Below, piece by piece: positions 5,492 to 8,269 of a stretch of DNA of 64,000 nt. Each line of letters opens with the position of its first letter. Position 1 is the first letter of the stretch. The position numbers were made by a program, and so were the translations under genes. The notes below the pieces were generated by a model. That model was given only the letters and a program-made list of their open reading frames with translations. It had not been told where the DNA came from and searched no databases. Source of the DNA: Haloarcula salina (GTDB lineage: Archaea; Halobacteriota; Halobacteria; Halobacteriales; Haloarculaceae). Location: contig NZ_WRXL01000004.1 of the NCBI RefSeq assembly GCF_010119195.1, positions 310,001 through 374,000 on the forward strand, in the 5' to 3' direction.

Positions 5492-7318
5492 ATGTACGAA
5501 CACGACGTCATCGTGGTCGGCGCGGGTGGCGCTGGCCTCCGGGCTGCGATCGCAGCGGACGAAGAGGGCGCTGACGTTGCTCTCGTGACTAAACTTCATC
5601 CGGTTCGGAGCCACACGGGCGCGGCAGAGGGCGGCATCAACGCCGCCCTCCAGGAGGGGGACTCCTGGGACCTCCACGCGTACGACACGATGAAGGGGTC
5701 GGACTACCTCGGTGACGCCCCCGCCATCGACACGTTCGCGCAGGACGCCCCAGAGGAGGTCATCCAGCTCGAACACTGGGGGATGCCCTTCTCCCGCGAG
5801 GACGACGGGCGCGTCTCCCAGCGGCCGTTCGGTGGCCTCTCGTACCCGCGGACGACGTACGCGGGCGCCGAGACCGGTCATCACCTGCTGCACACGATGT
5901 ACGAGCAGGCGGTCAAGCGGGGCATCGAGGTGTACGACGAGTGGTACGTGACCCGCCTCGCGGTCACAGACCACGACGACCCCGAGGACCGCGTCTGTCA
6001 CGGCTGTGTCGCCTACGACATCAAGTCCGGCGAGATTCACGGGTTCCGCGCCAACAACGGCGTCATCCTCGCGACCGGCGGGCTGGGACAGGCGTTCGAC
6101 CACACGACGAACGCCGTCGCCAACACCGGCGACGGCTGCGCGATGGCCTACCGCGCGGGCGTCCCGATGGAGGACATGGAGATGATCCAGTTCCACCCGA
6201 CGACGCTCCCGTCGACGGGCGTGCTCATCTCCGAGGGGGTCCGCGGCGAGGGCGGCATCCTCTACAACGACAACGAGGAGCGCCTGATGTTCGAGTACGG
6301 CTACGCGAACAACGACGGCGAACTCGCCTCCCGGGACGTGGTCGCCCGCGCCGAACTGACCGAGGTCAACAACGGGCGCGGCATCGAGGACGAGTACGTC
6401 CACCTCGACATGCGCCACCTCGGCGAGGAGCGCATCATCGACCGACTGGAGAACATCCTCCACCTGGCGGAGGACTTCGAGGGCGTCGACGGCCTCGACG
6501 AACCGATGCCGGTCAAGCCCGGCCAGCACTACGCCATGGGCGGCGTCGAGTGCGACGAGAACGGCGAGACCTGCATCGAGGGGCTGTACGCCGCGGGCGA
6601 GACGGCCTGCGTCTCGCTACACGGCGCGAACCGCCTCGGCGGGAACGCCCTGCCGGAACTGCTCGTCTTCGGGGCCCGCGCCGGCCACCACGCCGCCGGC
6701 AAGGACATGAAGACCGCAGAGATCCAGACCGGCCCCTCGGCCAAGAGCGAGCCGGGCGACGTGGAACCGCCGGTCGAACCCGGTGCGGTCGACGCCGGCA
6801 GCGACGATGTGGCCGCCGACGGCGCTGCCGTCGAGCCCCAGTCGGTGCTCGAAAACGCCGTCGATCACGAGCGCCGGCGCGTCGAGGAACTGCTGGAATC
6901 CGACGGCATCAACCACGCCGAGGTCCGCGCCGACGTCCAGCAGACGATGACGGGTAACGTCAACGTGTTCCGCGAGGAAGACGGCCTGAAAGAGGCCCTC
7001 CGGGACATCCGCGAGGCCCGCACAGAGTACGAGAATGTCGCCGTCGAGGACCCCTCGCGCACGTACAACACGGACCTCATCCACACCATCGAGACGCGCA
7101 ACATCCTCGACGTGGCCGAGGCCATCACGCTCGGCGCGCTCGCCCGCGAGGAGTTCCGCGGCGCGCACTGGCGCGCGGAGCACCAGGAGCGCAAAGACGA
7201 CGAATGGATCAAGCACACGATGCTGGCCTGGAACGAGGGCACCCCCGAACTCTACTACAAGCCTGTGATCCTCGAGGGCGACGAGCAGACCTACGAGCCC
7301 AAAGAGCGCTCGTACTGA
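5492..7318 (+). CDS. sdhA: Succinate dehydrogenase flavoprotein subunit SdhA
   Basis: 608 residues. The FAD dinucleotide fold is VVGAGGAGLRAA (9-19). H41 in RSHTGAAEGG corresponds to the histidine that holds FAD covalently. HPTTLPSTGVLISEGVRGEG and ARAELTEVNNGRG are the substrate-binding and catalytic-arginine regions, and HGANRLGGNALPEL closes the FAD site. Between about 405 and 450 there is an acidic, alanine-rich insertion not found in bacterial SdhA. It oxidises succinate to fumarate on the cytoplasmic face with SdhB. It is separated from sdhCDB by two reversed genes and converges on a cupin gene whose stop codon abuts its own. Confidence 0.97.
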   Translation: MYEHDVIVVGAGGAGLRAAIAADEEGADVALVTKLHPVRSHTGAAEGGINAALQEGDSWDLHAYDTMKGSDYLGDAPAIDTFAQDAPEEVIQLEHWGMPFSREDDGRVSQRPFGGLSYPRTTYAGAETGHHLLHTMYEQAVKRGIEVYDEWYVTRLAVTDHDDPEDRVCHGCVAYDIKSGEIHGFRANNGVILATGGLGQAFDHTTNAVANTGDGCAMAYRAGVPMEDMEMIQFHPTTLPSTGVLISEGVRGEGGILYNDNEERLMFEYGYANNDGELASRDVVARAELTEVNNGRGIEDEYVHLDMRHLGEERIIDRLENILHLAEDFEGVDGLDEPMPVKPGQHYAMGGVECDENGETCIEGLYAAGETACVSLHGANRLGGNALPELLVFGARAGHHAAGKDMKTAEIQTGPSAKSEPGDVEPPVEPGAVDAGSDDVAADGAAVEPQSVLENAVDHERRRVEELLESDGINHAEVRADVQQTMTGNVNVFREEDGLKEALRDIREARTEYENVAVEDPSRTYNTDLIHTIETRNILDVAEAITLGALAREEFRGAHWRAEHQERKDDEWIKHTMLAWNEGTPELYYKPVILEGDEQTYEPKERSY

Positions 7319-7639
7319 TCAGGGCGCGCCGACGAGCACGAACGTGCTCTCGGTGTCGCCGTTTCGGATTGTCCGCTCCGACTCCGGCGGAATCCTGAGC
7401 GCGTCTCCCCCGGACAACTGGACGTCTTCTCCGTCGACTTCGACCGTGGCGTCGCCCTCGAGCAGGAGGTACACCTCCTCCTGTCCGTCCTCGGCGTGAT
7501 CGTGGGGTTTGCCCGTCCAGCCGGGGTCACACTCGAGAACGGTGACGCCCACCTGCTCGCAGTCCAGCGGTTCTCGGAGGAAGCGCATCGCGTCCGCGAC
7601 CGGTTCGACCTCGGTGGTGGAGACTTTGGAGTAACTCAC
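7319..7639 (-). CDS. Single-domain cupin protein
   Basis: 106 residues forming one cupin_2 barrel. Motif 1 is visible as GWTGKPHDHAEDGQEEVYLLLEG split around the metal ligands (HDH and E), and motif 2 as GGDALRIPPESERTIRN, where the usual histidine is replaced by the ERT segment. Such small cupins bind a metal or a sugar-like ligand; the substrate cannot be assigned. The stop codon directly abuts the sdhA stop, so the genes converge without a gap. Confidence 0.82.
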   Translation of the reverse strand: MSYSKVSTTEVEPVADAMRFLREPLDCEQVGVTVLECDPGWTGKPHDHAEDGQEEVYLLLEGDATVEVDGEDVQLSGGDALRIPPESERTIRNGDTESTFVLVGAP

Positions 7640-7733: not shown

Positions 7734-7740
7734 CTATTTG
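7734..7740 (+). promoter_or_regulatory. TATA-like box before the tRNA-like gene
   Basis: CTATTTG ends 28 nt before the 5' end of the tRNA-like fold at 7769. The position fits transcription starting a few bases upstream of the fold. Confidence 0.35.
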
Positions 7741-7768: not shown

Positions 7769-7870
7769 GGAAGGGTGGCTCAGTGGTAGAGCGCTACCGA
7801 CCAATCGCCAGATTCCGGTCGGTAGTTACCCCGCAATGGGCTCCGCGTGGTTCGATTCCCGCCCCTTCCA
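7769..7870 (+). tRNA. tRNA-like gene with overlong anticodon arm; isotype not assignable
   Basis: A cloverleaf can be drawn over 102 nt. The acceptor stem GGAAGGG/CCCTTCC (7769-7775 with 7863-7869) is perfect and is followed by A as discriminator. The D arm GCTC-AGTGGTA-GAGC (7778-7792) is canonical. The anticodon arm is a perfect 9-bp stem CTACCGACC/GGTCGGTAG (7794-7802 with 7817-7825) enclosing 14 nt that can pair further as AATC-GCCA-GATT. The variable region is long, with a CCC/GGG mini-stem. The T loop TTCGATT (7851-7857) closes GCG(T)GG/CCCGC with one bulged T. CCA is not encoded. No ordinary 7-nt anticodon loop with U33 exists, so it could be intron-containing, a decayed tRNA, or a tRNA-like RNA. 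Confidence 0.5.
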
Positions 7871-7934: not shown

Positions 7935-8028
7935 GGGCACAGAGTTACGCCTCGGGGGAGTCCCGCTCGAAAATCCGAGAGTCGGCCGGGGGGAACAGCA
8001 ACTCTCGGTCTGGAAAGGTAAGGAATGT

Positions 8029-8051
8029 GGGGGGGTGGGGGGTGGGGGTGG
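8029..8051 (+). other. G-quadruplex-like tract
   Basis: Runs of 7, 6, 5 and 2 guanines are separated by single thymines. The three long runs can supply at least four GGG tracts with one-base loops, a very strong quadruplex pattern. It lies in a gene-free segment between the tRNA-like gene and the start of AT-rich DNA. Confidence 0.7.
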
Positions 8052-8269
8052 TGCGGCACCAGAACGGTGCCTACTCTATGTAACGGTAGATTACTGTAAA
8101 AGCCTTGTGCCTGAATTATCATAGCTGATATTCTGGTGACGACGGTCAGACAGAAGCCTCTCGACGCTGTCGAAGTCGTCCGAATATCGGACACTCGATC
8201 TGACGGTTCAGATATGATATTCGATAGACGAGAAAACGGAGCGCTGCTCGAATCACGACCCGGAGCCGA

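Follow-up and report, generated by a model that had tools for sequence, protein, structure and literature searches.

A Conserved Free-Standing tRNA-Like RNA without an Anticodon Loop in Haloarchaea

INTRODUCTION

A few cases of tRNAs that do not decode have been described in bacteria and eukaryotes, and these are mostly local or lie within larger RNAs. The mascRNA/MEN-beta tRNA-like RNAs and the bacterial Y RNA-like (YrlA) RNAs are tRNA-shaped, do not decode, and are handled by tRNA-processing enzymes; they are parts or products of larger RNAs, and their hosts are unrelated to those of the RNA described in this study. The closest precedent for this RNA is the pseudo-tRNA tRNAOther of Bacillus cereus, which is likewise tRNA-shaped, stands outside translation, lies beside integration scars, and tolerates deletion (PMC3399842).

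In this study, we analyzed a window of 64,000 nucleotides from the 3.79-Mb genome of Haloarcula salina, in which positions 7769-7870 are the Haloarcula version of a tRNA-like RNA (TLR) that is conserved and free-standing and lacks an anticodon loop. TLR does not represent a tRNA with an intron or one in decay; it is an overlooked RNA gene of haloarchaea, present in about half of those sampled, for which we infer a job outside reading the genetic code. No published description of TLR was found in the open-access literature searched or in Rfam 15. The excerpted text of the Haloferax volcanii genome paper gives 51 tRNAs as the complete set and mentions no TLR-like RNA. We consider it fairly probable that TLR represents an undescribed family of the Halobacteria, i.e., a free-standing anticodon-less tRNA whose T-stem bulge excludes elongation factor 1A and which acts either as a mimic regulating tRNA enzymes or the ribosome or as an amino-acid carrier outside translation.

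RESULTS AND DISCUSSION

Overall fold of TLR

The elements of TLR and its neighboring features are listed in Table 1. The acceptor stem, D arm, T loop, variable arm, and discriminator A described in an earlier sequence-only reading of the window are all found at 7769-7870, with the TATA-like box upstream, and its account of the structure (a 9-bp stem, a bulged base in the T-arm, and a long variable region) is accurate. The H. salina copy folds with an energy of -46.9 kcal/mol (z-score of -3.5 against shuffled sequences). In the minimum-energy fold of this copy alone, the D-arm region is paired otherwise than in the cloverleaf; the cloverleaf therefore rests on comparison among relatives, and the fold is more than chance because it recurs in related genomes with compensatory changes.

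Table 1. Coordinates of TLR, its structural elements, and neighboring features in the window.
Feature	Position	Strand	Description	Evidence
TLR gene	7769-7870	+	Fold from the 5' end to the discriminator base; CCA not encoded	Rfam tRNA match; covariance model R1; 30/32 congeneric genomes
Acceptor stem, 5' strand (GGAAGGG)	7769-7775	+	Pairs with 7863-7869 (CCCTTCC, 7 bp); discriminator A at 7870	
D-arm (GCTC-AGTGGTA-GAGC)	7778-7792	+	Contains G15, G18, and G19; D-stem pairs invariant over 33 sequences	
Arm at anticodon-arm position	7794-7825	+	9-bp stem CTACCGACC/GGTCGGTAG, extension AATC-GCCA-GATT, 2-nt bulge; anticodon loop absent	
Variable-region hairpin (CCC...GGG)	7830-7840	+	CCC/GGG in most own-family copies; elsewhere length and sequence differ	
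T-arm (GCG[T]GG TTCGATT CCCGC)	7845-7862	+	Bulged U at 7848; C48 at 7844	
TATA-like box (CTATTTG)	7734-7740	+	29-35 nt upstream of the fold	
sdhA	5492-7318	+	TLR lies downstream in many families	tblastn positions in named loci
Small cupin-like gene	7319-7639	-	Intervenes between sdhA and TLR only in Haloarcula, in most loci	

The Rfam tRNA model (RF00005) matches TLR with 42.8 bits (E-value of 4.5e-7 in 3 kb; gathering score, 29), and the match runs from end to end, yet it passes over most of the anticodon arm and variable region. Apart from tRNA, no family of Rfam 15 credibly matches TLR. As judged from the Rfam score and the core residues, the acceptor stem and the D- and T-arms with their elbow residues are those of a canonical tRNA, whereas the 5-bp anticodon stem with a 7-nt U33 loop is replaced by longer or shorter hairpins in the distinct copies folded, and the T-stem is broken by a bulged pyrimidine. 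In all 41 ordinary tRNAs of the same genome, the acceptor is 7 bp long and the 5-bp T-stem is unbroken; TLR is the sole exception. ARAGORN with default settings did not call TLR in the window; with introns allowed, it forced a spurious "Gly(tcc)" with an 11-nt intron onto TLR, a call supported by no relative. Gene callers thus either overlook such RNAs or impose a false isotype. The other tRNA matches of the genome form a nearly complete decoding set without TLR, although the complement is not fully proven, as the search did not recover Trp, elongator Met, Gln(CTG), and Ala(TGC) and also missed Pro(CGG), which ARAGORN found in the window.

Conserved core and T-stem bulge

The acceptor stem GGAAGGG/CCCTTCC is present in 100 of the 102 distinct copies and the T-loop TTCRANT in all of them. 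Among the core residues, C48 is found in 102 copies, G15 in 101, U8 in 100, and A14 in 97. The pyrimidine bulged from the T-stem occurs in 102 of 102 TLR copies versus 0 of the 41 ordinary tRNAs of the H. salina genome. The T-stem takes the form GCG[T]GG in 89 copies and, in ten members of one family (f7, collected by the covariance model), GTGG[C]G, where the bulge is shifted by one position and the stem is changed in a compensated way. For most copies, the search pattern had demanded some of the acceptor and T-arm sequence, and all these fractions are therefore biased upwards. The discriminator N73 is variable (G in 53 copies, A in 47, and C and T in 1 each). The acceptor has A3:U70 and no G3:U70, and neither G-1 nor a conserved class II variable arm is present. 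In six Halomarina-type loci (L083, L084, L085, L107, L124, and L142), the D-arm is altered (e.g., GGAAGGGCATGCGTGGTAGAAGTC) and the acceptor and T-arm are kept.

Selection on the anticodon-position and variable arms

Covariation was evaluated in 33 distinct own-family sequences aligned to a second model (R2). Two-sided changes were observed in eight of the nine pairs of the stem at the anticodon position, with 59 covariation cells compared with 15.6 ± 4.1 in shuffles; when the 3' partners were slid by 1 to 3 columns, only 2 to 9 cells remained. These counts lean towards the structure, as the R2 alignment was fitted to it; nevertheless, the unaligned sequences display the same changes. The region from the D-stem to the T-stem has a mean fold z-score of -2.3 over the 82 distinct copies first collected, and a hairpin occupies the anticodon position in these folded copies as well as in most of 20 more divergent ones.

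The copies range from 78 to 132 nt in length, and the shortest are of 78 to 86 nt. In Halorussus and Haladaptatus, the arm at the anticodon position is a plain stem of 6 to 8 bp with a short loop, whereas two loci of another genus (L194 and L195) have long stems both here and in the variable arm, which reaches up to 9 bp in L194. The two arms vary in sequence and length and keep their helicity; a helical stub that lacks an anticodon loop is what remains throughout. Most own-family loops at the anticodon position (L042-L082) contain CCAG (TGCCAGA, CTCCAGCA) and are similar to the loop of tRNA-Trp; this motif is not retained in other families.

Promoter and neighboring genes

Over 88 distinct upstream regions, A+T content peaks at -34 to -27 and at -11/-10, and these peaks mark a predicted archaeal promoter just upstream of TLR. 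TLR lies downstream of sdhA and shares its strand in Haloferax, Halobellus, Halogranum, Halomarina, Halostella, and others, and the two often lie within 50 to 200 nt of each other. The sequence-only reading had proposed the locus next to sdhA for comparison among relatives; in this comparison, TLR stands after sdhA in many families, and compensatory changes are present. In Haloarcula, the cupin gene on the opposite strand usually separates the two. The position of TLR is conserved within families, and the neighbors differ from family to family: in family f7, TLR stands beside one shared gene in seven of the loci examined, and in Halorussus beside a different one. No partner gene common to all TLR families was present among the neighbors compared, and a universal partner was accordingly rejected.

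Two further features were observed near TLR. A second conserved and probably independent small RNA gene lies at 8015-8105 on the minus strand, convergent with TLR, and is found in 28 of 30 congeneric loci; a TATA-like box is followed after about 25 nt by a GGCACC-loop-GGTGCC hairpin and then by CCCCCACCCCCCACCCCC and ACATTCCTTACCTTTCC, and on the plus strand the stretch is a G-rich tract. In six loci (L056, L061, L062, L065, L073, and L079), the 3' end of TLR (TTCGAATCCCGCCCCTTCCA) is directly repeated one to three times within about 100 to 300 nt downstream. These repeats occur only beside TLR in the genomes checked and resemble attachment-site scars.

Distribution among genomes

By DNA search, 30 of the 32 congeneric genomes contain a full-length relative, and matches occur in five genera of the family. 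A two-part pattern run over 84,980 species genomes gave 68 stretches, all haloarchaeal by title, in Haloferax, Halobellus, Halogeometricum, Halogranum, Halorussus, Haladaptatus, Halorientalis, Halomicrobium, Halomarina, Halorarius, and others. A covariance model (R1) comprising only the acceptor, D-arm, and T-arm separates TLR from ordinary tRNAs: the H. salina copy scores 89.9 bits and the tested relatives 66 to 90 bits, against at most 35.9 bits for the ordinary tRNAs of the same genome. Of the 392 genomes searched within the order, 189 contain TLR by this model; they belong to 47 of 95 genera and to at least seven families, and some have two copies. Over the phylum, TLR was detected in 36 of 393 genomes, all within the same order; the phylum-wide search thus found no TLR outside the order. 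The matches listed in both searches score at least 57 bits. Carriage by viruses was considered and rejected, as neither of two patterns found TLR in viral contigs. Halorientalis contigs of 80 to 120 kb (L088, L091, L092, and L150), one of them an annotated plasmid record, carry a second and short type of TLR (90-91 nt).

The two Haloarcula genomes without a BLAST match (G006 and G015) have no TLR in the stretch after sdhA, and their tRNA matches of roughly 105 nt, tried as candidates, are ordinary intron tRNAs. One of them (G006) has a dense tRNA gene cluster on a 363-kb contig (L102, G006:C3:237000-243000). In six TLR-less genomes, sdhA is present and nothing TLR-like follows it, which indicates that loss, where it happened, was clean. 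Since half of the sampled haloarchaea have no TLR, it is not essential. That TLR is a real RNA family under selection is well supported; its function is proposed below from its structure.

Proposed role and rival explanations

It is nearly certain that TLR is a selected RNA family that does not decode. The best explanation overall, which we somewhat favor, is that it is a dedicated halobacterial non-coding RNA, non-decoding and probably an uncharged tRNA mimic; on the mimic mechanism itself, our judgment is evenly balanced. TLR would be derived from, or convergent on, a tRNA. Comparison among the copies shows that selection keeps the upper half and core of the tRNA, i.e., the acceptor stem, the elbow of the D- and T-arms, G15-C48, and U8-A14, and that the anticodon arm has been replaced by a helical stub that is free in sequence and length. 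It would be transcribed from its own TATA promoter and presumably trimmed and CCA-tailed by ordinary tRNA enzymes. Lacking an anticodon, it cannot decode. Elongation factor 1A grips aminoacyl-tRNA at the T-stem, where TLR bulges, and for this reason the bulge may help to bar TLR from translation. Alanyl-, seryl-, leucyl-, and histidyl-tRNA synthetases can do without the anticodon; TLR is nevertheless probably not aminoacylated, because its discriminator varies and an anticodon-independent identity set is lacking. By engaging proteins or ribosomal sites that recognize the elbow and acceptor of tRNAs, it would then act as a mimic. Its most likely role would be that of a decoy for, or regulator of, the tRNA-handling machinery, a step drawn from structure alone because no gene partner is common to all families.

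The near-constant acceptor, the constancy of which comes partly from the search pattern, is also compatible with a charged RNA or an integrase-kept site. Some non-proteinogenic tRNA-Gly species are amino-acid donors outside translation, and an aminoacylated TLR could similarly donate an amino acid in lipid, cell-surface, or peptide modification. The nearly invariant acceptor (100/102), the intact elbow and core, and a T-stem bulge that could bar elongation factor 1A would suit such a donor, but the variable discriminator (G 53, A 47, C 1, T 1), the absence of any known anticodon-independent identity set, and the absence of a shared transferase gene nearby make it unlikely.

A role as a tRNA-like processing signal or 3' element, which was proposed for tRNAOther of B. 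cereus (PMC3399842), would here mean that TLR punctuates the sdh operon or forms one domain within a larger regulatory RNA. The short distance to sdhA on the same strand agrees with this role; however, TLR has its own TATA signal, an opposite-strand gene usually intervenes in Haloarcula, the contexts differ elsewhere, and the length varies as that of a self-contained fold, and we regard it as improbable. Still less probable is a ribosome-associated regulatory RNA working like the 97-nt s194 of H. volcanii. The two are of similar size, and a tRNA-shaped elbow could conceivably dock on the ribosome, but s194 maps to HVO_2011s2 and not beside sdhA (PMC3956466), whereas TLR in Haloferax follows sdhA; they are therefore different genes, and the identity of TLR with s194, suggested by the 97-nt length and the TATA spacing, was rejected.

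The sequence-only reading had offered three options, of which a stable tRNA-like RNA with another function stands and an intron-containing tRNA and a decayed tRNA do not. For an intron-containing or otherwise disguised decoding tRNA, one may cite the intron-bearing tRNA Arg(TCT) of the same genome and the CCAG of own-family loops, as in the tRNA-Trp loop. This reading is scarcely credible, since none of the 102 distinct relatives has a 5-bp stem with a 7-nt U33 loop, no bulge-helix-bulge was seen in the copies inspected, copies of 78 to 86 nt have plain short hairpins and no room for an intron, the CCAG motif is not retained in other families, the ordinary complement covers nearly all isotypes (Trp and a few others were not recovered), and TLR-less genomes exist. 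The TTCGAATCCCGCCCCTTCCA repeats just downstream in some genomes are what attachment-site scars would leave, but a decaying pseudogene or integration scar is just as hard to credit, because the stems of relatives covary (two-sided changes in 8/9 pairs, and no loss of pairing without compensation), which refutes decay by the criterion that the sequence-only reading had itself set, the promoter and core are conserved over many genera, and the gene is cleanly absent from TLR-less genomes.

A compact anticodon-less tRNA that is kept throughout an archaeal order, to which the model organism Haloferax and its genus belong, would provide a clean system, open to genetics, for learning what the tRNA body does without decoding. 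A further question would be how cells prevent such an RNA from entering translation.

Comparison with known systems

TLR agrees with non-decoding tRNA-like RNAs in general in having a tRNA-shaped fold under selection, and its lack of decoding is deduced from the absent anticodon. Similar to TLR, the tRNA-like domain of bacterial tmRNA keeps the acceptor and T-arm and has a helix instead of an anticodon arm. TLR is archaeal and has no messenger part, and membership in the tmRNAs was rejected, as no messenger-like frame and no conserved G3:U70 were found in a self-contained RNA of 78 to 132 nt in all with A3:U70. The selC* tRNA-Cys and allo-tRNAs share an unpaired T-stem base (A51a in selC*) and an atypical architecture with TLR; however, they carry anticodons, their acceptor domains are of the 8/4 or 9/3 type, and they come from bacteria (PMC7609411). 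The ribosome-associated s194 RNA of H. volcanii is likewise haloarchaeal, of about 97 nt, with its own promoter (PMC6104027), but it is located at another locus (PMC3956466), is not described as tRNA-shaped, and is reported in Haloferax species only. Finally, tRNAOther has a Trp anticodon and occurs in some Bacilli (PMC3399842), whereas TLR lacks the anticodon loop, bears a bulge in the T-stem, extends over an archaeal order, and shows compensatory evolution.
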